From: Prochlorococcus sp. AG-347-I06
GTDB taxonomy: Bacteria > Cyanobacteriota > Cyanobacteriia > PCC-6307 > Cyanobiaceae
DNA: 64,000 nt
Direction of reading: 5' to 3'
Assembly (NCBI GenBank): GCA_003281605.1
Contig: QCBM01000002.1
Span: forward strand, 1-64,000
Part shown: in pieces, positions 32,913 to 44,035 of the stretch
Numbering within the stretch: the first letter of the stretch is position 1
Layout: each line of letters starts with the position of its first letter
Position numbers and translations under genes: made by a program
Notes under the pieces: model-generated
Databases searched by the model: none
What the model saw: only the letters and a program-made list of their open reading frames with translations
Told to the model about the DNA's origin: nothing

Positions 32913-33049
32913 TTACTAAAGAAGAAGAAAAAGAATTTAAAAAACCTAAATTATATAGATTTTGGAACTTTCTTATTTATGGAAGTTCGATAGCTATTGG
33001 AGTTTTCTTAGTTTATTTATATTCTGCTTATGTCTTTATAAATAAATGA
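32909..33049 (+). CDS. Micro-membrane protein, second of the run (46 aa)
   Basis: A lysine- and glutamate-rich N-terminus (ITKEEEKEFKKPKLYRFW) precedes a helix NFLIYGSSIAIGVFLVYLYS. It ends AYVFINK. The size and topology resemble accessory subunits of respiratory or photosynthetic complexes, though no match is recognised. Coupled on both sides by 4-base overlaps. Confidence 0.55.
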   Translation: MITKEEEKEFKKPKLYRFWNFLIYGSSIAIGVFLVYLYSAYVFINK

Positions 33050-33141
33050 CTTACATGTACGGCATAGCGATTACTTATGGGGTTGTAAGTCTTTTATTGC
33101 TTGGCGGGTTTGCATACTTTACTTTTAAAATGAAACGCTAA
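33046..33141 (+). CDS. Micro-membrane protein, third of the run (31 aa)
   Basis: 31 residues: TYMYGIAITYGVVSLLLLGG then FAYFTFKMKR, a single glycine-containing helix with a basic end. Coupled to the preceding gene by an ATGA overlap. Function unknown. Confidence 0.5.
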   Translation: MTYMYGIAITYGVVSLLLLGGFAYFTFKMKR

Positions 33142-33157
33142 TTTTTATATCTTCTCC

Positions 33158-33271
33158 AATAAAGATTTATTAGATAAATTTTTTGATTTTTGTAGAGAAT
33201 ATCAACAAGAAATTCCACCTCAAAAGATGGCTGAGATTTTAAGAGAATATGCAGATAGATTAGATGAATGA
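33158..33271 (+). pseudogene. Coding-like fragment without a start codon
   Basis: The frame reads NKDLLDKFFDFCREYQQEI then PPQKMAEILREYADRLDE before TGA. The composition and helix pattern look like a real protein, but no ATG, GTG or TTG occurs upstream in frame before the stop at 33131. It could be a decayed gene, use a non-standard start, or arise by frameshifting from the previous gene. Confidence 0.35.
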
Positions 33272-33414
33272 TAGATACTAGAAGACCTAAGAAGGTATTA
33301 AGAGAAAAAATTTCTAGCAAAATTTATACAAATTTTTTTAAAGTTGGAATAAATTTTCTGAAGATATTTTCCTTGCAATTATTCATAATTTGAGATTTTT
33401 TTTTGATCCTTAAT

Positions 33415-33485
33415 CCGTACAATTTTGTTCCTCTAACCGCACACATAAAACTTGAAAATTACTATTCAAATGAATTAGAACATAG
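33415..33485 (+). repeat. Shared leader element, copy 1
   Basis: CCGTAC at 33415-33420 and AACCGCACACAT at 33435-33446 are separated by 14 bases. A downstream TTCAAATGAATTA and AACATAG follow. The same parts in the same order and spacing precede the 45539 gene. It ends 22 bases before the ATG at 33508. It is likely a promoter or 5' UTR element. Confidence 0.55.
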
Positions 33486-33507
33486 TTGTAGTAAAGGGGT
33501 AAGTCTT

Positions 33508-33660
33508 ATGGCACTAAACGACACATTTACTATCCAACAAATTAATTTGGATAAAAAAGACCTTTCATATTCCAATAAGCTCAAAGAAATTGAAGCTTAT
33601 TGGGATAAAGAATGTGCTGAACATCCGAGTAACAACCATTGCAAGATTTTTTGTGATTAA
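33508..33660 (+). CDS. Small protein with KEC-x-P-C-C motif (50 aa)
   Basis: From ATG at 33508 (RBS AAAGGGG, 33493-33499). It starts ALNDTFTIQQINLDKKDLSY and ends WDKECAEHPSNNHCKIFCD. The end is shared with the 33863 product (NKECIDYPNQEECLVCCN): three cysteines in the pattern KEC-x3-P-x4-C-x2/3-C. This suggests a metal site or disulfide. The longer frame from 33403 runs through the leader repeat and is not used. Confidence 0.6.
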   Translation: MALNDTFTIQQINLDKKDLSYSNKLKEIEAYWDKECAEHPSNNHCKIFCD

Positions 33661-33745
33661 AACTTTAACTTTTAGGTATTCTTACGCTTGATTTTTACAT
33701 AATACCCGTACTAAAGAATAATCAGATAGAAAGGAGGCCAAGCAA

Positions 33746-33847
33746 ATGACTAATTTAGGTATAGAAATTTTATTTTGGACAATTTTAATTTCTTATCTGG
33801 GATTAAGGTTTTCTCAAACGTGGAATGGATTCAAAAAACAGTATTAA
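33746..33847 (+). CDS. Micro-membrane protein (33 aa)
   Basis: ATG preceded by a very good ribosome site AAGGAGG (33731-33737). The product is a helix TNLGIEILFWTILISYLGLR followed by FSQTWNGFKKQY. It lies 15 bases before the next small gene, so the two are probably co-transcribed. Confidence 0.55.
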   Translation: MTNLGIEILFWTILISYLGLRFSQTWNGFKKQY

Positions 33848-33862
33848 TTAGGAGAATAGAAA

Positions 33863-34009
33863 ATGAAACTACAAACTCAGTTCGCGGTTCCAAACAAAGA
33901 ATTAAAAGTTCTTGATTACGTTAAGAAAGTAGATTTTTTAGAAGAAACTTTAAATAAAGAATGTATAGATTATCCAAATCAAGAAGAATGCTTGGTTTGT
34001 TGCAATTAA
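33863..34009 (+). CDS. Small protein with KEC-x-P-C-C motif, paralogue of 33508 (48 aa)
   Basis: Starts KLQTQFAVPNKELKVLDYVK and ends LNKECIDYPNQEECLVCCN. An AGGAGAA lies upstream at 33850-33856. Its end is homologous to the 33508 product. The final codons overlap, in another frame, a fragment that looks like the C-terminus of a LOG-family enzyme. Confidence 0.6.
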   Translation: MKLQTQFAVPNKELKVLDYVKKVDFLEETLNKECIDYPNQEECLVCCN

Positions 34010-34127
34010 AAATAAAAAAATAGCTGATCTTGGATTAATTGAAGATGAACACCTAAACCTTTTCGAATATGCATACAATGCATCAGAAACATGGAAAATT
34101 ATCAAATCATCAAAAATCTCAGATTAA
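33990..34127 (+). pseudogene. C-terminal fragment of a LOG/TIGR00730-like protein
   Basis: The frame reads AWFVAIKNKKIADLGLIEDE then HLNLFEYAYNASETWKIIK before TAA at 34125. This resembles the usual end of LOG-family (cytokinin riboside-monophosphate phosphoribohydrolase, formerly lysine decarboxylase-like) proteins: a helix with GLIxxEHLxLF then DAxExWxII. Only the last 40-45 codons remain, with no start codon. It points to a deletion or insertion edge inside the island. Confidence 0.4.
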
Positions 34128-34155
34128 AAGTAAGCTAGTTATTTTTAAATAACTT

Positions 34156-34479
34156 TTAATTACTTAATTTATAATTTGTTTTAACAGTTTTTATTATTGA
34201 ATCTTGTGGTTCTTCACTTGGGAAACAATTAATAATCCTATATTTTCCTCCTTTTTTATCAGTCTCAACAACTGTAAATTCAACGTATTTACCAATTCCA
34301 TCTCTTAAATCCTTCACTTCAGTATTTATTATCTCTTCTTTATCATTTTCGATGATACGAGATTTACCTCCGCAACTTAACAAAGCGTTTTCCTCAGTGA
34401 GAAAAAAATCTTTGTCATTACTGCAAGAAGATAAGAAAGATAAAGAGACTAATATTAGTATAAAATTTTTCATAATCAA
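34156..34479 (-). CDS. Predicted lipoprotein, unknown function (107 aa)
   Basis: A signal sequence ending in a lipobox LSSC near residue 19 (LILVSLSFLSSCSNDKDFFL) marks it as a probable lipoprotein. The mature part has two more cysteines (LLSCGGKSRII, IINCFPSEEPQD). No family is recognised. It lies between the KEC micro-genes and the Rieske gene. Confidence 0.6.
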   Translation of the reverse strand: MIMKNFILILVSLSFLSSCSNDKDFFLTEENALLSCGGKSRIIENDKEEIINTEVKDLRDGIGKYVEFTVVETDKKGGKYRIINCFPSEEPQDSIIKTVKTNYKLSN

Positions 34480-34592
34480 CTTTTTGTACTTAACTACATT
34501 ATCAATAAGGCTTATTAAATATATAGTTAAATCCCTACCAAATTATAAATTAAATTAAATCAATAATATCAGTGCAATAAATAGAAATTATG

Positions 34593-35615
34593 TTAGAAAG
34601 AAATACCCAATGCATTTAGAAAATCTTTATAAATATTTTGCCAGTGTATAACCCTTTGTTCAAGTCTATTAGGCGGACCAAGTTTAAAATTTTCCAGATA
34701 AGACTTATGAACTGATTCGACAATAACTTTATCTTCCCCAAGAAATTCTAATATACTTTTTTTCCAATTTTCTAAATCATTTTCACATAAAGATGCAGAA
34801 GCTAATTTAATTTCAATAATACACTGATCAATATTTTTAGGAAGATAATTTATTAAGACAATCCCTTTACCAGGCCAGATTATTAGATGGGTCCATGGGA
34901 GTAAACCAAAGGTATATAGATTTCTTTCATTGCTTAGAGGCGTAACAAGTACATTACAAAAATCACTGAAGAAATACTTGTAGTTTTTTATTGGACCTTG
35001 TTCTTTGTGTAGGGTATCTTTATGAGCTATTGCTACATGATAATCATCCAGTGTATTGTCATGGGCAATTTTCCAATTGCAATTTAAGGTATCAGAAAAT
35101 TCAGAAAAAATGCTGTAATTCATCTCCCATTCATCATTACATTTTCTCCCTACAAGCTCAATTTGATCATCTATAGATATTGGTTTTTTGCTGAAATTAA
35201 TCCAAATTAAAGGTCCATTTATTAAAGAGTTAACTTTTTCTAAAAAATAATCCCCTGTTTCTATTTTTGTTTCAAAATCGTACTTTAATGGCAAGGTTTT
35301 AAGTTTGCCAAAACTATCAAAAGTCCAGCCATGGTAAGGACAAAAAATACTTTTAGAAGGATTAAATTTTGTTTTTGGCAAACATAATTTTGACCCACGA
35401 TGAGGACATCTATTTTTAAAAACAGTTATTAAATTATTTTCTGAACGAGAGATAAAAAATGATTTATTAAAGAATTTCTTTTCCAATATTTCCCCAGGTT
35501 TGATTTCTCCAATGAAAATCAATGGGTGCCAATAATTTTTTGAATAGTTATCTAATTCAAGTTCAAATATTTTTTGGTCGTTATAAAGCCAAGTAGGCAA
35601 AAAACTAGTAGACAT
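34593..35615 (-). CDS. Rieske-type aromatic-ring/N-demethylating oxygenase alpha subunit, coupled to the guanidine importer
   Basis: 340 residues. The Rieske [2Fe-2S] site is C70-x-H72 ... C92-x2-H95 (RCPHRG and FCPYHGWTF). The mononuclear iron site is D190-x2-H193-x4-H198 in TLDDYHVAIAHKD. This is the full alpha-subunit architecture of a terminal oxygenase; no reductase gene lies nearby. The ATG overlaps the stop of the ATPase gene (TAATG), so it is part of the importer operon, downstream of an NtcA-like site. A role on substituted guanidines or another imported amine is inference. Alternatively it is an unrelated oxygenase (carnitine or choline-type) carried in the same operon. Confidence 0.85.
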   Translation of the reverse strand: MSTSFLPTWLYNDQKIFELELDNYSKNYWHPLIFIGEIKPGEILEKKFFNKSFFISRSENNLITVFKNRCPHRGSKLCLPKTKFNPSKSIFCPYHGWTFDSFGKLKTLPLKYDFETKIETGDYFLEKVNSLINGPLIWINFSKKPISIDDQIELVGRKCNDEWEMNYSIFSEFSDTLNCNWKIAHDNTLDDYHVAIAHKDTLHKEQGPIKNYKYFFSDFCNVLVTPLSNERNLYTFGLLPWTHLIIWPGKGIVLINYLPKNIDQCIIEIKLASASLCENDLENWKKSILEFLGEDKVIVESVHKSYLENFKLGPPNRLEQRVIHWQNIYKDFLNALGISF

Positions 35616-36379
35616 TATTTAATTTTTTGGAGGCTTCTTAAAAAATCAGATAACTCATATCTTAATTTTGAAAAATCCGAATCAAGTCTCAATTTATCCA
35701 AATCACCTTTTTGTAGATCTACTTTAACTTCTTTTATTATTCTCCCAGGATTAGGTGCCAAAATACATATTTGCTGAGAGAGCGCCAATGCTTCTTCAAT
35801 ATCATGGGTTATAAGTAAAACTGTCAATGAAGTTTTTTTCCATAATTCATATAAAAATTTCTGCATAGATTCTCTTATCTGCAAGTCTAAGGCTCCAAAA
35901 GGTTCATCTAAAAGTAGAATTTTAGGGTTAGTCGCGAGAGCTCTTGCAATTGCAATTCTTTGTTGCATTCCTCCAGATAATTCTTTTGGATACTTATTTC
36001 CTGAATCCTGAAGACCCACTACTTCTAATAAATAAGATGTTCTATATTTTATTTCTTTCAATTTATAAGAATTTAAATTCATACCAAATGCAATATTCTC
36101 AGATGCTGTGAGCCAAGGGAAAAGACTATATTTCTGAAAAACCATTCCTCTATCCAATCCCGGTCGACTAACTATTTTCCCATCGACTTTTACGTTCCCG
36201 GCAGATGGACTTTCAAGCCCAGCAATAATCCTTAATATAGTACTTTTACCTGATCCTGAGCTCCCTACAAGTGTTTTAAATTCGCCAGAACTTATTGAAA
36301 AGCTTATTCCATCAATTGCCTTTTTTCTATTTGAACCTTCCCCAAAATATTTTGAAATATTATTAACATCTAATTTCAT
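35615..36379 (-). CDS. ABC transporter ATP-binding protein (nitrate/sulfonate/taurine/guanidine type)
   Basis: 254 residues. Walker A is GSSGSGKST (about residues 39-47), the signature LSGGMQQR and Walker B KILLLDEPFGALD are present, and the switch histidine lies in THDIEEAL. It is the SsuB/TauB/NrtD-type ATPase. The start abuts the permease stop codon, and its stop overlaps the Rieske gene start. Confidence 0.93.
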   Translation of the reverse strand: MKLDVNNISKYFGEGSNRKKAIDGISFSISSGEFKTLVGSSGSGKSTILRIIAGLESPSAGNVKVDGKIVSRPGLDRGMVFQKYSLFPWLTASENIAFGMNLNSYKLKEIKYRTSYLLEVVGLQDSGNKYPKELSGGMQQRIAIARALATNPKILLLDEPFGALDLQIRESMQKFLYELWKKTSLTVLLITHDIEEALALSQQICILAPNPGRIIKEVKVDLQKGDLDKLRLDSDFSKLRYELSDFLRSLQKIK

Positions 36380-37198
36380 TTAAACAGCCCATTTACATGT
36401 ACGTCTTAGAAGAAATCTAAAACTCATATCTAAAGCAAATCCAATTAATCCAAGAACTATTAATTCTGCAAATATTTGATCTGTGCGAAAAAATCTTTGA
36501 GCTAGTTGAATCCTTTTACCTAAACCAACTTCTGCTGCAATTAACTCTGCAACAATAACTAAATTCCATGAAGTTGCAATATTAATTCTTAAAGTATCAA
36601 TAATACTTGGCAATGAGTATCTGGTTATTACTCTGATTAATAAATCTTTTGTATTTCCTCCCAAAGTAAGGGTTGTTTCAATGAGTTCTTTAGGTACAAA
36701 TTTTACTGAATCCATAACCATCAAAACATTAAAGTAAACGGTACCAATGAATATTAATGCAATTTTTGGAGCCTCTTCAATTCCTAAATAAATAATAAGC
36801 AAAGGAGAAAAAGCAGCTGCAGGCATATATCTAAGCATTGCAATTAATGGTTCACATAAAGCACAAAAAGAAGGGAAAGAACCCATTAAGATTCCTAAAG
36901 GAACCGAAATAATTGTCGCAATTATAAAACCAGCAAATACCCTCCCAGTACTTGCAAAAATATCTTCAAATAAAATTCCACTTTCAGCCATATCTAAAAG
37001 AGAATAAAAGACCGCTAACGGTGATGGTAAAAACATTTCACTCACAAGTTTTAATTGACACACTATTGTCCAAATTAAAAGGGGAATCAAAAGTGAGGCT
37101 ATTTGAAGAAATATTTTATTTGATTTTTTCGGTTCACTACCAAATGAAAAGAGGGATAAAAAATATTTATCCCTCTTGATTAATTTCGAACTAACCAT
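36380..37198 (-). CDS. ABC transporter permease (SsuC/TauC type)
   Basis: 272 residues with about six helices. The binding-protein-dependent transport signature lies around LTLGGNTKDLLIRVITRYSL and PSIIDTLRINIATSWNLVI. It sits 15 bases after the binding-protein gene, with zero gap to the ATPase gene. In Synechocystis the matching genes (sll1080-sll1082) lie beside gdmH in the same order, and the transporter is implicated in guanidine uptake. Confidence 0.92.
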   Translation of the reverse strand: MVSSKLIKRDKYFLSLFSFGSEPKKSNKIFLQIASLLIPLLIWTIVCQLKLVSEMFLPSPLAVFYSLLDMAESGILFEDIFASTGRVFAGFIIATIISVPLGILMGSFPSFCALCEPLIAMLRYMPAAAFSPLLIIYLGIEEAPKIALIFIGTVYFNVLMVMDSVKFVPKELIETTLTLGGNTKDLLIRVITRYSLPSIIDTLRINIATSWNLVIVAELIAAEVGLGKRIQLAQRFFRTDQIFAELIVLGLIGFALDMSFRFLLRRTCKWAV

Positions 37199-37213
37199 TT
37201 TAATTTATATTAA

Positions 37214-38212
37214 TTAACTAATATTTTTAACAAAAGAAGAATCAAATAATTTACTCATATCTGGTTTTTCAGGAATAAATCCTACCTTTACCATAAAGTC
37301 TGCCATTTGTTTCGCTGCATAAGGCATATGTTTCATGCCGAACCCATCACTAAAAGCTTCTAGATTTTCTGCCAAAGAAAAGAACCTAGTCCCACCCTTA
37401 TATTGTTTGTATTCGCGTGTTGGGATCCCAGCTCGCTTTGCCATAATCTTTTCAGATTTTCTTGGATTTTTTTCCATAAATTCTCTTACATCCCACCAAG
37501 TTTTAACAATTTTTTGAACATCATCTGGTCTTTCAGAAATCAAATCTCCACTTACAGCTAATAAATCAGGGATTGCACCAGGATATTCTTTTGAACTAGC
37601 AATAACTCTTGCGCCTGGCCTCTTCATTGCAGTTCCGGTAAATGGAGGAAATGCACCAACTGCATCAACTTTTCCCGCTGCGAATGCAGTTGCAGCCTGA
37701 TCAGTTGGCAGACCTTTAATAATTACATCATCTCTAGTTAATCCAACATCATTCAGAGCTAAAACAAGTAAAAAATCATCCACAACACCTTCTTCTACTG
37801 CTACTGTTTTACCTTTTAAATCAGCAACACTTTTAATTGATTTATCTGCAATTATTTGGTCATTCCCTGCAGAATTATCATTAACTAAAACAACTACTTC
37901 CCCTCCATTCTCTCCGGGTAAGAACGAAATAGTATCATTAAGAGTTTGCGAATTTCCATCGATTTTTCCAGCAGCAAAAGTTTCCATGGATTGAACATAT
38001 CCATCAAACCATTTCATCTGAACATTAACTCCATTTTTTTCAAACATTTTTTGATCAACAGCTATCGCCCATGGCCACCATCCTGCCCAGTTACTGTATC
38101 CCAAAGTGATAGGTTCTCCTTTTGGAGCGGCAGGACTTGATAATGTACTTAATGAAATCGCTAATATCAGAGCAAGCAAAGAGGCAGCAAAAACTCTCAA
38201 TTTTTTGAACAT
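37214..38212 (-). CDS. ABC transporter substrate-binding protein, probable guanidine importer
   Basis: 332 residues from ATG at 38212; a TTG at 38242 would add ten residues and lie before the signal peptide. The signal peptide is LRVFAASLLALILAISLSTL. The mature part begins ITLGYSNWAGWWPWAIAVDQ, with the tryptophan-rich start of NMT1/SsuA-like binding proteins, and contains GLPTDQAATAFAAGKVDAVG. It is first in the importer operon behind a perfect GTA-N8-TAC site. The substrate is inferred from the adjacent gdmH; the family also covers nitrate, sulfonates, taurine and thiamine precursors. Confidence 0.85.
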   Translation of the reverse strand: MFKKLRVFAASLLALILAISLSTLSSPAAPKGEPITLGYSNWAGWWPWAIAVDQKMFEKNGVNVQMKWFDGYVQSMETFAAGKIDGNSQTLNDTISFLPGENGGEVVVLVNDNSAGNDQIIADKSIKSVADLKGKTVAVEEGVVDDFLLVLALNDVGLTRDDVIIKGLPTDQAATAFAAGKVDAVGAFPPFTGTAMKRPGARVIASSKEYPGAIPDLLAVSGDLISERPDDVQKIVKTWWDVREFMEKNPRKSEKIMAKRAGIPTREYKQYKGGTRFFSLAENLEAFSDGFGMKHMPYAAKQMADFMVKVGFIPEKPDMSKLFDSSFVKNIS

Positions 38213-38269
38213 TTTTGGAAAAAAAATTTTACGTACTATCAATACTTAAAAAAAAGTAAATCTAAAGTT

Positions 38270-38283
38270 GTAATGACTGATAC
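38270..38283 (-). promoter_or_regulatory. NtcA-box (GTA-N8-TAC) before the guanidine importer
   Basis: GTATCAGTCATTAC on the minus strand, a perfect match to GTA-N8-TAC. It lies 58 bases upstream of the chosen start of the binding-protein gene and after the hypB stop. About 22 bases downstream is an AAGTAT box that could serve as -10. This is the standard layout of a class II NtcA-activated promoter, though activity is inferred. Confidence 0.6.
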
Positions 38284-38317
38284 TTTTAAGAGATTACTAT
38301 TAATTAATCAATATTAC

Positions 38318-38998
38318 TTATTTTTTAAATTTCAGAATCTTTTTACTAATCCATTTTTGCCATAAATCAAATCCAGACTTGGTTATTGAAGAAATTTCTA
38401 TAATATCTGCCTTAGGATTAGTTGATGCTATATTCGATTTTAATTCGTTGATATCAAAATTCAAATGGGGTAATAAATCAACTTTAGTTATCAAAATTAA
38501 ATCTGCTTCTCTAAACATTATTGGATATTTTAAAGGTTTATCCTCACCTTCAGTAATACTTAAAAGTGCAACTTTAAAATGTTCACCTATCTCAAATTCT
38601 GCAGGACAAACTAAATTTCCTACATTTTCCACTAACAAAATATCTAGAATATCAGGATTGATTTTTTTTTCTAGTAATTTTAAACCTCCACTAACCATAT
38701 TTGCATCGAGATGACACGCTCTTCCAGTTGTAATAGGTACTACTGGAATATTTAATTTTTCTAATCTTGCCGCGTCTAGATTAGTAGTCATATCACCCTC
38801 TAAAACAGCACTCTGAAATTCTTTTGAAAGATCTTCTAAAGTCATTTCAAGTAATCTTGTTTTTCCTGCACCAGGACTACTCATTATGTTCAAGCAGAGC
38901 AAATTATAATTATTGAACTTAACTTTATTTTTCTCGGCTTGATGACTATTTTGATGAAGAATATTTAATTCAATTTTGTCTGAAATTGGTAAATGCAT
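38318..38998 (-). CDS. hypB: HypB-like nickel-inserting GTPase (GhaB) for guanidine hydrolase
   Basis: 226 residues. The P-loop is SSPGAGKTRLL (about residue 41), followed by VPITTGRACHLDANMV, the HypB signature ENVGNLVCPAEFE, and the guanine-specificity motif TKVDLL. HypB delivers nickel to metalloenzymes. Because there is no hydrogenase here and the gene follows gdmH and hypA, it is most likely the GdmH-accessory protein GhaB. The N-terminal HypB nickel motif is absent. Confidence 0.88.
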   Translation of the reverse strand: MHLPISDKIELNILHQNSHQAEKNKVKFNNYNLLCLNIMSSPGAGKTRLLEMTLEDLSKEFQSAVLEGDMTTNLDAARLEKLNIPVVPITTGRACHLDANMVSGGLKLLEKKINPDILDILLVENVGNLVCPAEFEIGEHFKVALLSITEGEDKPLKYPIMFREADLILITKVDLLPHLNFDINELKSNIASTNPKADIIEISSITKSGFDLWQKWISKKILKFKK

Positions 38999-39038
38999 TT
39001 ATTTTTGAAAATACGTTTTTATTCTAGATCCTAATTTT

Positions 39039-39395
39039 TTACTTTTCTTTAAAATCAATAGATGCGATTTTTAATTCCCTCCCGCTAATAATTTCTTCTA
39101 AATTAAAATTGCAACATGGAGATTTATATCCATTCTCTTTCTTAGGAAAATATGATCTATTGCATTTAGAGCATTTTCCTTCAAAAGGTATTGTTTCAAT
39201 AGTAATCTCAGAGGAATCTAACCAAGAACCCAAAACTGCAGCGTTAAAAGTATTAATTAATGATATTGGTTCTACACAAGTAAATTCGCCAATCTTAAGA
39301 TTAATCTTTTCAACAACTATTTTTTCTTTATTTTTTTTCTCTGCCCACTCTTCCATGGAAAGGATAAGGCATTTTGTCATATCTATTTCATGCAC
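39039..39395 (-). CDS. hypA: HypA-like nickel chaperone (GhaA) for guanidine hydrolase
   Basis: 118 residues. It begins MHEIDMT, in which His2 and Glu3 are the HypA nickel-binding end. The zinc site is CSKC (about residue 75) with PCC near 94. The spacing fits HypA/HybF. It lies 6 bases after gdmH and 40 bases before hypB. As for hypB, the context assigns it to GdmH maturation rather than hydrogenase. Confidence 0.88.
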   Translation of the reverse strand: MHEIDMTKCLILSMEEWAEKKNKEKIVVEKINLKIGEFTCVEPISLINTFNAAVLGSWLDSSEITIETIPFEGKCSKCNRSYFPKKENGYKSPCCNFNLEEIISGRELKIASIDFKEK

Positions 39396-39401
39396 GAAAA
39401 T

Positions 39402-40592
39402 CTATCTCCATTTTTGATCAACTGACATATTGCATTTATCTGTAATCCATTCTGGTTTAGATTTTCTCGGGATCTGACCACTTACAACAAGATGTGCAAT
39501 TGAATCACAAATAACTCTAGTAGCTAATAAGGCTGTCATATCACTTACATCATATGGAGGCGAAACCTCAACAAGCTCAATTCCACATACATTTACTTTT
39601 CTGATAATGTACTCCAAAAGTTTTAATGCCTCTCGAGGTAATAAACCCCCAGGTTCAGGCCAACCAGTTCCTGGGACAAATCCAGCATCAATACAATCAA
39701 TATCAAAAGAAATATATACACAGTCAGTTCCATCAGTAGCTTTTTCAATCGCAAAATCAGCCGCCTCTTTTAAACCCATTTCACAAATATCAGTAACAGT
39801 TAAAACATTTGTACTTCTTTCCCTACAAATTTTCACTCCCTCTCTTGGTACTTGCCAACCTCCAATTCCTAATTGAACAAGATTTTTTGCAGGTGCATTT
39901 TTCATATTAGTTGCATGAAACCATGGACAGGTATGCATTCTTTCATCTAGATCTGTTTCTTGAGTATCTACATGTCTATCAAAGTGAATAATTCCTACTT
40001 TTTTATCTCCTAAATGGCGACAAACTCCTCTAACTGTGGGAAACCCTATTGAGTGATCTCCACCTAAAATAATTGGAAATGCACCACTAGCAAAAATATG
40101 AGCCACCCCCTTTGAAATTTGATCAAAACTTTTTTCATTATTTGCTGGAATTGTAAAAATATCTCCTACATCACATATAGAAATCTGCTCTCTCAGATCC
40201 ACTCCCATTTCGTAATTGTAAGGAGTGTAAAGAGCAGAAATTTTTCTTATTCCTTGAGGTCCAAATCTTGTACCTGGTCTATAAGTAGTTCCGGAATCAT
40301 GAGGCACACCAACTATAGCAACATCATAATTTCCAACTTCATTTACATTTTCAACATAAGGAGCTTTCATAAAGGTATTGATACCCGCAAAATGAGGTAA
40401 TTCTCCTCTTGAAAATGTAGATATTTTTCTATCTACAATGCTTTTAGCTGCTTCTAGACCATATTCCTTTGCTCGGGCAACTTCGTTTTCCCATCCTTTC
40501 AGAGGTAATTTTGCTTCTTTTTCTAAAGCATCCATTCCTTCGCTGGGATGCTTCCTTATAAAGTCTTGATTTTGAGATGATTCAGTAGTCAC
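39402..40592 (-). CDS. gdmH: Guanidine hydrolase (nickel-dependent ureohydrolase, agmatinase family)
   Basis: 396 residues. The manganese/nickel site residues are H180 (GGDHSIG), D205, H207 and D209 (FDRHVDTQETD), and D297 and D299 (SFDIDCID). An FDRHVD in place of the usual DAHxD, an extended N-terminus of about 80 residues, and GIGGWQVPRE match the Synechocystis GdmH group (formerly annotated speB). It splits guanidine into urea and ammonium in the cytosol. Urease genes are not in the window. GTG start. First gene of gdmH-hypA-hypB. Confidence 0.88.
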   Translation of the reverse strand: MTTESSQNQDFIRKHPSEGMDALEKEAKLPLKGWENEVARAKEYGLEAAKSIVDRKISTFSRGELPHFAGINTFMKAPYVENVNEVGNYDVAIVGVPHDSGTTYRPGTRFGPQGIRKISALYTPYNYEMGVDLREQISICDVGDIFTIPANNEKSFDQISKGVAHIFASGAFPIILGGDHSIGFPTVRGVCRHLGDKKVGIIHFDRHVDTQETDLDERMHTCPWFHATNMKNAPAKNLVQLGIGGWQVPREGVKICRERSTNVLTVTDICEMGLKEAADFAIEKATDGTDCVYISFDIDCIDAGFVPGTGWPEPGGLLPREALKLLEYIIRKVNVCGIELVEVSPPYDVSDMTALLATRVICDSIAHLVVSGQIPRKSKPEWITDKCNMSVDQKWR

Positions 40593-40731
40593 AAATTTAA
40601 AATTCTTTTTTTCACTTATTTCAATATTGTCAATAAAAATAAAAATGAACCATAAACTTGCTTAAAAAGAATCTCATTGGAACATTGTTAAATAACTTTT
40701 CGCAAAAATCAGAAAAATAACTCCATTAAAA

Positions 40732-40761
40732 AAGCCAGCCTGTATTGCTAAAAGCTGACTT
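40732..40761 (-). terminator. Conserved 30-base hairpin, copy 2, with T-tract on the minus strand
   Basis: On the minus strand AAGTCAGC ... GCTGGCTT followed by TTTT, with a 14-base loop. It ends transcription of the 40824 gene, 63 bases away, and lies upstream of gdmH. It is the second copy of the hairpin family found at 22996. Confidence 0.65.
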
Positions 40762-40823
40762 AATGACAAACGTATTTAAAAATATTTATTAATACAGTAA
40801 TAAAAGAAAGAAGAGGTAATTAA

Positions 40824-40979
40824 TTAATAAGTATTGGATATTTTGTTTTTCATATTTTCAATTTTATTGATTAATTCATCTAACCATTCTGTATTATTTT
40901 GCTCTTGTCTTTTTTGATGCTGACTGTTTTGAGTACTCATAAATTTCTTATTTATATAGTCCATTAAATTTATCTTCAT
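40824..40979 (-). CDS. Small protein with NTEWLD-x-LI motif (51 aa)
   Basis: Ends QNNTEWLDELINKIENMKNK then ISNTY, matching DNTEWLDKLINNIEDMKNK of the 45539 product; the N-terminal parts differ. ATG at 40940 would give a shorter 38-residue product (STQNSQHQKRQEQ start) that fits the shared region better. Function unknown; helical. Confidence 0.55.
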   Translation of the reverse strand: MKINLMDYINKKFMSTQNSQHQKRQEQNNTEWLDELINKIENMKNKISNTY

Positions 40980-41161
40980 AAATTACAAGAATCAATAAGC
41001 AATAATACCAAATCGATTGATAAGACAAGCTTTAGTAGCATTTCATACAAAGCTAGCCATCACATATTATCTAAAAAAACCTAAATCTCTTCTATTAAGT
41101 ATTTTCTACGATGTTTTTATTTGCGATTCTGAGTTGAATTGGAATAGATATAGGTCTTCCT

Positions 41162-41269
41162 ATGGAAAAATCATTTCTAAATTTCATTTATTGGATCTTA
41201 CTAAAGTCAGCTGAATCTTACTATGGCGAATCAATGAAAACAGAAATTCCATATACGCCTTATTTTTAG
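41162..41269 (+). CDS. Micro-protein with SAESYYGES motif (35 aa)
   Basis: Starts EKSFLNFIYWILLKSAESYY and continues GESMKTEIPYTPYF. It is a paralogue of the 31408 product. The longer plus-strand frame that begins near 41017 in another phase is not convincing. Function unknown. Confidence 0.5.
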   Translation: MEKSFLNFIYWILLKSAESYYGESMKTEIPYTPYF

Positions 41270-41328
41270 ATTTACTCGAGTTTTTTTTAATTATTGCAAC
41301 TATACTTTTAGCTTTATTAATTTTAGAT

Positions 41329-41637
41329 CTAACTTCTTCTCACCCAATCAGGAGATCCACTAAACCAATCAGCAAGATCATCATTTTTGGGATCGAAATG
41401 ATTTTCAGTTTCTAAACCATCAAGGCCAAGATTCTGGATAAGTCCATTTATTCCATCTGTTTTTTGCTTACCATATCTTCTTAAGCTATTAGCTTTCTTT
41501 AGCCATGTCCATATAGTTGAATTATGTTTTGCAAACTTTTCTACATAAATTCTTTCTTCCAATGCGACAGGTTCATCTAGTGAAATCCTCTTTACAATAT
41601 CCTTAAGTTTTAAACGAGTCTTGTTTGTTAGAAACAT
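41329..41637 (-). CDS. Conserved hypothetical protein, possibly phage-related (102 aa)
   Basis: Starts FLTNKTRLKLKDIVKRISLD and ends LADWFSGSPDWVRRS. The protein is charged and compact. I have an impression of similar sequences in T4-like cyanophages and Prochlorococcus islands, but cannot confirm it here. Its presence beside an island of repeats would be consistent with phage-mediated gain. Confidence 0.6.
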   Translation of the reverse strand: MFLTNKTRLKLKDIVKRISLDEPVALEERIYVEKFAKHNSTIWTWLKKANSLRRYGKQKTDGINGLIQNLGLDGLETENHFDPKNDDLADWFSGSPDWVRRS

Positions 41638-42022
41638 ATTTATAAAAGAAGTTAATGTTTTATAAAAGTTTTTTTTATGAATGTCTTGTCAATCTTTATT
41701 TCAAGAAAAAGTATTTTTTAGGAGCTTTTCAAGGACAAATATATTTATTTAAAAACAGGTATATTCAATTGGTAAAAAAGACTACTTAATTCGATTTATA
41801 TAACTTATATAAAAACGAGTTCCATATAAGTTTCTCTGCGCAATTTAAGATTTAATTTATAAAATTGAATAAGGAAATTTACATTAATATTCGATTTAAA
41901 ATAAGGGCTGTTAACTCCTTATAAAGATTTATACAAAAAACATAAAAAGTTAAATCAAGTACTGACAGATATTTAAAAAATAAATACTATAAGTCTAAAT
42001 AATTTTTTAGAAATTCAAATTC

Positions 42023-42448
42023 ATGATCAAGAATTTATTCATCGCATTAGCTTTTGCATTAATGCTTATCAATCCAAGCATTTCTATAGCTGCAGAATCT
42101 CCTGTTGATGTACAAGAAATCTTCACCTCTTCAGAAAATATTGATGGAGATAACTTTAAGTATCCAAAAGGAAAAGCTGAAATGCGGTTGATTCGAGTAG
42201 AAGTTGAAAATGGAGCAACCATACCAATGCATTCGCATCCAGTACCTTTACTAGGTCATATTGAAAGTGGCGAATTAACGCTTGCTGAAAAAACTGGTAT
42301 TAGTAAAACCTTTAAGGAGGGGGATTCATTTGTTCTCTCAGCAAATACTCCTGCTCATACAATGGCTAATAGTGGCAATTCTTCAGCGGTTATGTGGGTT
42401 GCTGTAGCTTCAGCGGAAGGTTTACCTACTCTAAATCCTGAAGAATAA
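42023..42448 (+). CDS. Secreted cupin-domain protein (141 aa)
   Basis: A signal peptide (KNLFIALAFALMLINPSIS then IAAES) is followed by a cupin core. Metal ligands are visible in PMHSHPVPLLGHIESGE (His-x-His ... Glu) and a second histidine in NTPAHTMANSG. The protein is probably periplasmic and binds a metal or small ligand. Function unknown. A dyad element and a terminator follow. Confidence 0.75.
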   Translation: MIKNLFIALAFALMLINPSISIAAESPVDVQEIFTSSENIDGDNFKYPKGKAEMRLIRVEVENGATIPMHSHPVPLLGHIESGELTLAEKTGISKTFKEGDSFVLSANTPAHTMANSGNSSAVMWVAVASAEGLPTLNPEE

Positions 42449-42456
42449 ATCAACCT

Positions 42457-42474
42457 GATTGACAGTCAATCTAA
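42457..42474 (+). repeat. GATTGACA-type dyad element, copy 2 (perfect palindrome)
   Basis: GATTGACAGTCAATC is an exact palindrome around a central A, followed by TAA. It lies 8 bases after the cupin stop. Confidence 0.6.
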
Positions 42475-42499
42475 GCTAGGGGGCAACTAGCTGCTTTTT
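42474..42499 (+). terminator. Terminator after the secreted cupin gene
   Basis: AGCTAG-GGGGCAA-CTAGCT-GC followed by five T residues. It overlaps the end of the convergent DsrE gene. Confidence 0.75.
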
Positions 42500-42875
42500 A
42501 ATAGCAAAGTACGCTATCCGCTTTAATTGATTCTTCAACTAGAACATCTGGCATAACAAACTCTGCAGTATATCCATCTAGAAGCTTCTCATCGTAACCC
42601 CTAGATTTAGCAGACATTCCTGAGACATATATGGTAATTTTTGAACTCTTTAAATTTTGAAGATGTTCGTATAAATCTCCAGTACCTTGACCAACTATTT
42701 CACCAGCTTTTTTGCAACTTAATATTTGTACTCCGTCTCCTGCTAGAAAAAGTGTTACTTTATGATCGTTTTTTTCTGCAGCAAGGGCAACCAATAAACC
42801 TAAAGTTATTTTATTTTTGGATTCTAAACCGCTGTAAATATGTACTAACACTGTATTGTCGGTAATGATAGACAT
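42498..42875 (-). CDS. DsrE-family protein
   Basis: 125 residues. The DsrE/DsrF-like fold is visible from VLVHIYSGLESKNKITLGLL, then KVTLFLAGDGVQIL, LKSSKITIYVSGMSAKSRGY and the end VEESIKADSVLCY. Proteins of this fold handle persulfide sulfur or act as small regulatory chaperones. The cysteines at CKKA and in the final VLCY could take part. Function unproven. Confidence 0.78.
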   Translation of the reverse strand: MSIITDNTVLVHIYSGLESKNKITLGLLVALAAEKNDHKVTLFLAGDGVQILSCKKAGEIVGQGTGDLYEHLQNLKSSKITIYVSGMSAKSRGYDEKLLDGYTAEFVMPDVLVEESIKADSVLCY

Positions 42876-43173
42876 TTAATCCTCCCTAAATTTTGTTTTT
42901 ATATCCTAAATAAAATCTATTTTCATTAGCTGTTTTTTTATGAAACTCTTACTACTTGCACCTCTTTCTTATTGGCAGATGGCTATTAAGTATTAAAAAT
43001 AAATCCTAAATATAGAAATCTTCTTCCAACCTTTTTCCATAAATGATTGCGAATACTAGATTTATACACCTCGATTTTTTGCCAATTTTCTTGCTTTTTC
43101 CTTATTTTTTCGTAAGTATGCGTATATAGGCTCTAATTTGCTCTAAAAAACTGTCACATGGGGGGTTACGATT
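42876..43173. other. 298-base region without a supported gene
   Basis: A divergent promoter region between the DsrE gene and the 43174 gene. An 18-codon ORF near 42940 (KLLLLAPLSYWQMAIKY) is too short to support. No hairpin stands out. Confidence 0.3.
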
Positions 43174-43443
43174 ATGGAAATTCCAGACGAAATGTTGAAA
43201 GAAATTAGAGAAAGTGGATACGATCAAGAGCTTGTATATAACTACATAAGAGAACTATTAAACAGCGATAAACAAATTAATGAAAATAACAATCTAGAGC
43301 TTATAGACAATTACCTATTAGAAAAAGATCTACAAGAACCTGCTGCTGAGATACAGATAGCAGCAGAGCTTATAGACAATTACTTATTAGATAAAAGATT
43401 TATGAGAGAGCTTGAAGATGATAAAGAATGTGATGCTGCTTAA
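43174..43443 (+). CDS. Small acidic protein with internal repeat (89 aa)
   Basis: The acidic helical protein contains two copies of a short unit: LELIDNYLLEKDLQE (near residue 41) and AELIDNYLLDKRFMRE (near 65). An upstream degenerate third (QELVYNYIRELLNS) may be a further copy. A GGGGGG tract lies before the ATG. Function unknown. Confidence 0.65.
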   Translation: MEIPDEMLKEIRESGYDQELVYNYIRELLNSDKQINENNNLELIDNYLLEKDLQEPAAEIQIAAELIDNYLLDKRFMRELEDDKECDAA

Positions 43444-43514
43444 TTAGATAAAGTACCTATTTTTTCCTATTTATTTAAAGGTTATCCTTTTGAGCAAATA
43501 ACAGGATTAAAACA

Positions 43515-43637
43515 GTGATTAAACTTGCCATCATTTTTTTACCAATTTTATTTGCAGTTATTTGGGCTGCTTTTATAGGTTTAAGAATAAATAAAGTAGA
43601 AACTAGAGATGGAAAAAGAAAATTAATTAATTACTAA
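43515..43637 (+). CDS. Micro-membrane protein (40 aa)
   Basis: GTG start, 40 residues: one helix (LAIIFLPILFAVIWAAFIGL) and the tail RINKVETRDGKRKLINY. A dyad element lies 2 bases after its stop. Confidence 0.45.
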   Translation: MIKLAIIFLPILFAVIWAAFIGLRINKVETRDGKRKLINY

Positions 43638-43639
43638 TT

Positions 43640-43657
43640 GATTGACAGTCGATCTAA
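43640..43657 (+). repeat. GATTGACA-type dyad element, copy 3
   Basis: GATTGACAGTCGATCTAA. It is followed by CTAATG ... CATTAG (43678-43699), a 6-base stem without a T-tract. This is the only copy lacking a clear terminator. Confidence 0.6.
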
Positions 43658-43730
43658 AAAAGGAACCTAGCTACTGGCTAATGAACCATGTGCCATTAGT
43701 TATAGCAATGGATTTCAAGAAACCGTAAAA

Positions 43731-43752
43731 ATGTTCACGATATGTTCACGAT
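43731..43752 (+). repeat. Tandem 11-base repeat ATGTTCACGAT
   Basis: Two perfect adjoining copies, 43731-43741 and 43742-43752, immediately upstream (3 bases) of the 43756 ATG. It could be an operator or a recombination scar. Confidence 0.55.
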
Positions 43753-43755
43753 TTA

Positions 43756-43959
43756 ATGGCTTCACCTTCGAGTTGGGAATTCTATAAAGAAGAACAAACT
43801 AAGATTTTATGGGTACATATTTGTACCCAAGATTTAACGGGTGTAGCTATTTCAATAAATAAATGGCGGAAGACAAGGTATCCAGAGTTCAAAATCAGAA
43901 TAGTTTCTAAAAAAGAATTCGAACATATAAAAATGCAGGAGCAGCAACAACAGCAATAA
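43756..43959 (+). CDS. Repeated island protein B1 (67 aa)
   Basis: Starts ASPSSWEFYKEEQTKILWVH and ends with a run of glutamines (EQQQQQ). It is the paralogue of the 32208 gene, with equal length. It opens the second copy of the duplicated module. Function unknown. Confidence 0.7.
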   Translation: MASPSSWEFYKEEQTKILWVHICTQDLTGVAISINKWRKTRYPEFKIRIVSKKEFEHIKMQEQQQQQ

Positions 43960-44035
43960 AATTAATCTTTGGTAAATTTTGATGCTGAACATTTTTTCTA
44001 TTCAGCTAATATAATTTCATCACATTAATGAACAA

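Follow-up and report, generated by a model that had tools for sequence, protein, structure and literature searches.

A conserved NtcA-type site upstream of the presumed guanidine importer genes of Prochlorococcus, and its counterpart before gdmH in other cyanobacteria

The window analysed here, i.e., the whole stretch of 64,000 nucleotides from Prochlorococcus sp. AG-347-I06, carries on its minus strand, in this order, gdmH, hypA, hypB, a gap, and the genes for a binding protein, a permease, an ATPase and a Rieske protein, and thus matches the gdmH-hypAB-ABC guanidine cluster in gene content and order. We took the name gdmH from PMC10119275 and PMC10094980, where the homologous cluster is described, and the importer is presumed, from homology, to take up guanidine. 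The features of the locus are as follows.

39402 to 40592, minus strand: gdmH, presumed Ni-dependent guanidine hydrolase of the arginase/agmatinase family (PF00491; outgroup identity)
39039 to 39395, minus strand: hypA-type nickel chaperone, ghaA (PF01155; below the NCBIfam hypA cut-off)
38318 to 38998, minus strand: hypB-type nickel chaperone, ghaB (TIGR00073, above cut-off)
38263 to 38288, minus strand: conserved footprint TAAAAGTATCnnnnATTACAACTTTA, which encloses the site and spans -76 to -51 relative to the ATG; the four central bases alone vary (52-row alignment)
38270 to 38283, minus strand: NtcA-type site GTATCAGTCATTAC (GTA-N8-TAC), by direct reading; exact in all Prochlorococcus loci with upstream sequence (54/54)
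38242 to 38247, minus strand: presumed -10 box AAGTAT (xAxxxT), 22 bases after the site
37214 to 38212, minus strand: substrate-binding protein of the importer, SsuA family, NMT1_2 (PF13379, TIGR01728), with its ATG at 38212
36380 to 37198, minus strand: ABC permease (PF00528)
35615 to 36379, minus strand: ABC ATPase (PF00005)
34593 to 35615, minus strand: Rieske [2Fe-2S] oxygenase-like protein (PF00355, PF00848), last gene of the importer unit

The binding protein is 99-100% identical to those of single-cell genomes such as AG-895-M21 and AG-402-N17, and we infer a host of the high-light type. Between the gdmH product and its matches in the fetched outgroup loci, identity is 77-87%, against 32-39% between the Rieske protein and its outgroup counterparts; as the latter identity is far below that of gdmH, the Rieske protein seems to be either fast-evolving or replaced. 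The importer unit is tightly packed, with gaps of 15 and 0 bp and then a 1-bp overlap with the Rieske gene, and gdmH, hypA and hypB are separated by 6 and 40 bp. The largest gap of the cluster, 105 bp, separates the stop codon of hypB (38318) from the start codon of the binding-protein gene (ATG, 38212). The original prediction had placed an exact GTA-N8-TAC in this gap, and one does lie there, at 38283-38270 on the minus strand. We rejected TTG 38242 as an alternative start for the binding protein, since a gene beginning there would, judging from gene calls and alignment, overlap the presumed -10 box.

In a single genome, such a site constitutes weak evidence. The window contains 16 exact GTAN8TAC motifs for 6.44 expected, a number reached in none of 100 shuffles. 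The whole genome, however, holds 211 of them vs. 291 for a reversed-pattern control; the motif as such is therefore not enriched, and the local excess was discarded as an argument for the site. When the 105-bp gap was shuffled 5000 times with its dinucleotides preserved, an exact site appeared in 3.6% of the shuffles, and a site followed by xAxxxT at a spacing of 22 or 23 in 0.74%. Another exact motif, inside hypB, is retained in 36 of 47 alleles, presumably through coding constraint. The genome-wide count and the 3.6% of shuffled gaps would both fit a chance match in AT-rich DNA; this explanation nevertheless appears very improbable, since the site is kept in 54 of 54 loci though rows differ, elsewhere in the gap, by 9% on average and by up to 36%. 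It is this conservation across loci that turns the weak evidence from one genome into what we consider strong evidence, at the level of sequence comparison.

A match to the binding protein was found in 58 of the 266 genomes of the genus, which leaves 56 loci once the distant G106 and G117 (about 30% identity) are set aside, and 54 once L055 and L056, whose contigs end before the upstream region, are also left out. The exact site lies at -67 to -73 from the ATG in every one of them. Locus L052, where the exact site is present, was too short for the column counts (52 rows) and has less than 80 bp upstream, so that it was also left out of the allele counts (site exact in 53/53). In the alignment of 52 rows, no change affects the six bases that define the motif or the bases next to them (TAAAAGTATC....ATTACAACTTTA), while four of the eight spacer bases, all of them central, vary: GTATCAGTCATTAC occurs in 43 rows and six other kinds are shared among the remaining nine. 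The most diverged rows, L052 and L053, with a binding protein 96% identical, retain the site as well. As the rows are close relatives, 54/54 overstates their independence, and invariant halves around a variable centre appear to be a stronger point than the raw count; the conservation nonetheless seems well beyond chance. Conservation in related strains was the check named beforehand by the original prediction, and the site stood up to it.

A candidate for the -10 box announced about 22 bases downstream lies at 38247-38242. An xAxxxT box (AAGTAT, GAGTAT or AAATAT) follows the site at a spacing of 22 in 52 of 53 alleles and, as AAGTAT, at 23 in the last one. Published passages describe the canonical NtcA promoter as a TAN3T box combined with a GTAN8TAC whose centre lies near -40.5, with site-to-box spacings of N21-N24 in Synechococcus WH7803 (PMC9430850), and give GTAN8TACN21TAN3T as a search motif (PMC2758279). 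Across alleles, the first base of the box is A or G and never T, where the TAN3T consensus has T; in the window, A2 and T6 of AAGTAT match and the first T is mismatched. An xAxxxT also occurs at a spacing of 29 in 50 of 53 alleles, and a sigma-70 promoter scan gave no prediction at the site.

No terminator was predicted between hypB and the binding-protein gene, and read-through from hypB is possible. This would suit a single transcript started at the gdmH promoter, in which the gap would serve the binding-protein gene as a leader or as an element of its translation and GTA-N8-TAC would be incidental; invariance in the 52-row alignment also extends to parts of the T-rich stretch that follows the site. 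Such an element, however, hardly accounts for half-sites that stay invariant while four bases between them change, and among the 62 outgroup rows (57 genomes, five rows repeating a genome), an exact site within 300 bp upstream of the importer was found in one only, L218, at -194. We thus regard the single transcript as improbable.

The leader of gdmH offers a different picture. Among 43 Prochlorococcus alleles, excluding L163, where the gdmH start lies beyond the contig end, none carries the core string of the guanidine-I riboswitch, and none a GTAN8YAC within 300 bp before gdmH. RF00442 was found neither at 33000-44000 of the window (Rfam, E<=10) nor in six further Prochlorococcus loci (E<=2), and the Rfam matches included no other known RNA element fitting gdmH or the importer. 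The claim that no NtcA-type site precedes gdmH is thus right for the first 300 bp. Farther upstream, an exact GTATGAAATGCTAC lies at 41035-41048, about 100 bp before a small backbone ORF; in the 700 bp read, GTATGAAATNNTAC occurs in 33 of 43 gdmH-bearing alleles. This site was rejected as a control element of gdmH, because the same stretch, site included, is present in all ten fetched loci from genomes without a binding-protein match (some of these genomes being incomplete), and it is most likely part of the backbone that flanks the cluster. Used as a query, this stretch matched at least 247 of 265 genomes, in many cases only across a segment of about 90 bp, and a segment of that length from the small-ORF stretch also recurs elsewhere, e.g., at G000:C4:84865-84955 of the window's genome. 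The further claim, that the importer and the Rieske gene are controlled apart from gdmH-hypA-hypB, agrees with the gene spacing and with the siteless 300 bp before gdmH; as an interpretation it is partly supported.

Within the genus, RF00442 was found in two of 266 genomes, G124 and G128, on contigs other than that of gdmH, and beside nitrile hydratase genes in both (L295:3886-6862 and L294:3496-6358, respectively). In G128, the riboswitch precedes an NMT1-type ABC importer, behind which lies an isochorismatase-family gene; in G124, it precedes a 200-aa protein whose sole match, to CopG, is below threshold. Both riboswitches have an exact GTAN8TAC 45-51 bases before their core. The Prochlorococcus lineage can thus keep the guanidine-I RNA, which is missing at gdmH.

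Outside the genus, 29 genomes of the family were found to encode a close homologue of the binding protein, and in 24 of them a guanidine-I riboswitch scores over the cut-off. Two of the five misses are G288 (L088, 24 bits) and G359 (L098, no listed match); the others are G443 and G519, with no gdmH on the fetched stretch, and G376, whose contig ends inside hypA. The order gdmH-hypA-hypB, binding protein, permease, ATPase recurs in the clusters of Synechococcus and Synechocystis, many of which also include a Rieske gene. In two outgroup genomes (L093 and L097), the fetched stretch has the importer and the Rieske gene but no gdmH-hypAB, and a glutamine-II riboswitch lies about 3.6 kb away.

The riboswitch core string was found in 46 fetched outgroup gdmH leaders, ranging from Synechococcus to Synechocystis salina and Microcystis; it was lacking in L088, L098, L215 and three Prochlorococcus rows. 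Within 110 bp upstream of the core, 37 of the 46 leaders carry GTAN8(T/C)AC, nine of them with an exact TAC, where mononucleotide shuffles gave 3.9% (GTAN8YAC) and 2.0%, respectively. Seven of the nine remaining leaders have a one-mismatch site at 44-50 bases, and the last two, L213 and L222, have no site even at one mismatch. In 36 of the 46, the site lies 40-50 bases before the core (e.g., L080-L119, L212-L226), and all 36 show an xAxxxT at a spacing of 22 or 23, when any other spacing from 8 to 35 was never seen in more than eight of them. Since these leaders show both elements, an NtcA-type promoter followed by a guanidine-I riboswitch before gdmH looks ancestral, and the combination of site, -10-like box and riboswitch likely forms a two-input promoter. 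The gdmH leaders of L088 (Synechococcus sp. RCC307; also L201) and L098 carry an exact NtcA-type site; their riboswitch is decayed or divergent (24 bits for RF00442 in L088, with a cut-off of 63, and no listed match in L098). Descent of the Prochlorococcus importer site from an old gdmH leader was set aside: compared by eye, the two bear no clear likeness.

The regulator itself is encoded in the genome of the window (TIGR03697, 366.6 bits for a cut-off of 244.95). With 2-oxoglutarate bound, NtcA acts as a DNA-binding activator. Before amt, taken as a positive control, an exact site was found in 13 of 13 loci of the same genus. The stretches scanned for other presumed targets of NtcA gave an exact site in 5 of 11 cases for ntcA and in none of 12 for urtA, so that an exact site is neither needed nor proof. 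The site might also be bound by another regulator of the CRP/FNR family, and the operon could then answer to a different stress. The main rival binder would be a PtrA-like paralogue of 195 aa (G000:C1:311749-312336; L296:750-1337), which matches both PtrA and NtcA models and in which the region GSTRVTSTRLISKLR resembles GSTRVTITRLLGDLK of NtcA, residues that we take to be the recognition helices of the two proteins. Its score with the PtrA model, 41.9 bits, is far under the cut-off of 300, and the same class of site before amt (13/13) and before the guanidine-I riboswitch of outgroup leaders (37/46) points to the nitrogen regulator; we therefore consider binding by such a relative instead of NtcA to be unlikely.

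Taken together, these observations make it quite probable that the importer site is an NtcA-activated internal promoter, with gdmH-hypAB on another promoter, the riboswitch gone from gdmH and the NtcA input located at the importer. From a mechanistic point of view, when nitrogen is short, 2-oxoglutarate-loaded NtcA would occupy 38270-38283 and bring RNA polymerase to the -10 box at 38247-38242; the resulting short-leader transcript would span the binding protein, permease, ATPase and Rieske genes. The genes gdmH-hypA-hypB would be expressed from a different promoter of their own, devoid of an NtcA site. A single NtcA-type promoter and a guanidine-I riboswitch would stand before the entire gene set in other cyanobacteria, whereas in this Prochlorococcus lineage gdmH lacks the riboswitch and the NtcA input would act at the importer. 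Most likely, the importer was rewired from a joint response to nitrogen shortage and guanidine to a response to nitrogen shortage alone, and a loss of guanidine sensing at the Prochlorococcus cluster is, on these comparisons, the best reading. We infer the direction of evolutionary change from the outgroups.

The two-input gate, i.e., an NtcA-type site and a riboswitch before gdmH, is seen from Synechocystis and Microcystis to marine Synechococcus. A broader scenario, which we judge evenly balanced between right and wrong, is that high-light-type Prochlorococcus dismantled this old gate and rebuilt the NtcA input at the importer, so that uptake follows nitrogen status without sensing of the substrate and the enzyme runs on a separate schedule. 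If true, this would be a case of regulatory streamlining, in which an RNA sensor for a rare substrate was dropped and uptake was tied to general nitrogen status, and the importer transcript could mark nitrogen stress in field data. The idea that ocean picocyanobacteria use guanidine is recent, and the tandem of NtcA site and riboswitch in the relatives offers a testable two-input promoter.

Some elements of this picture have precedents in the literature. Sll1077 is described as degrading guanidine in a passage of PMC8390497, and Synechocystis sll1077-1082 transcripts are noted in PMC10094980 to fall with excess ammonium. The cluster is described for Prochlorococcus and Synechococcus, with a riboswitch in Synechococcus, in passages of PMC10119275, whose main text has no occurrence of "NtcA". 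Judging by titles and the starts of abstracts of the literature on guanidine and NtcA with Prochlorococcus or the riboswitch, and by passages of PMC12930504, the site is apparently undescribed there; NtcA control of the Synechocystis gdmH may have been reported before.

Compared with known systems, the locus resembles a canonical NtcA-activated promoter by its GTAN8TAC, which is followed after 22 or 23 bases by a -10-like box, and by its place before a presumed nitrogen-compound transport operon; it departs from it in that the box begins with A or G instead of T, and in that the candidate lies inside the cluster and not before it. Within the genus, the amt promoter of Prochlorococcus is similar: in 12 of 13 loci, the first ATG is preceded at 96-97 bp by an exact GTAN8TAC (in the thirteenth, the site is 48 bp before the ATG and the open frame begins earlier). 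Its site is, however, farther from the ATG than that of the importer, and its box (TAAATT or CAAAAT) lies at a spacing of 23 in the four loci inspected, vs. 22 at the importer. Finally, the gene order is that of the guanidine-I (ykkC) riboswitch-bearing gdmH/speB2-hypAB-ABC clusters of Synechococcus and Synechocystis (Pro-eCAG_004 / Syn-eCAG_001, in passages of PMC10119275), whereas in Prochlorococcus gdmH has neither riboswitch nor NtcA-type site (300 bp), and a site stands before the binding-protein gene instead.
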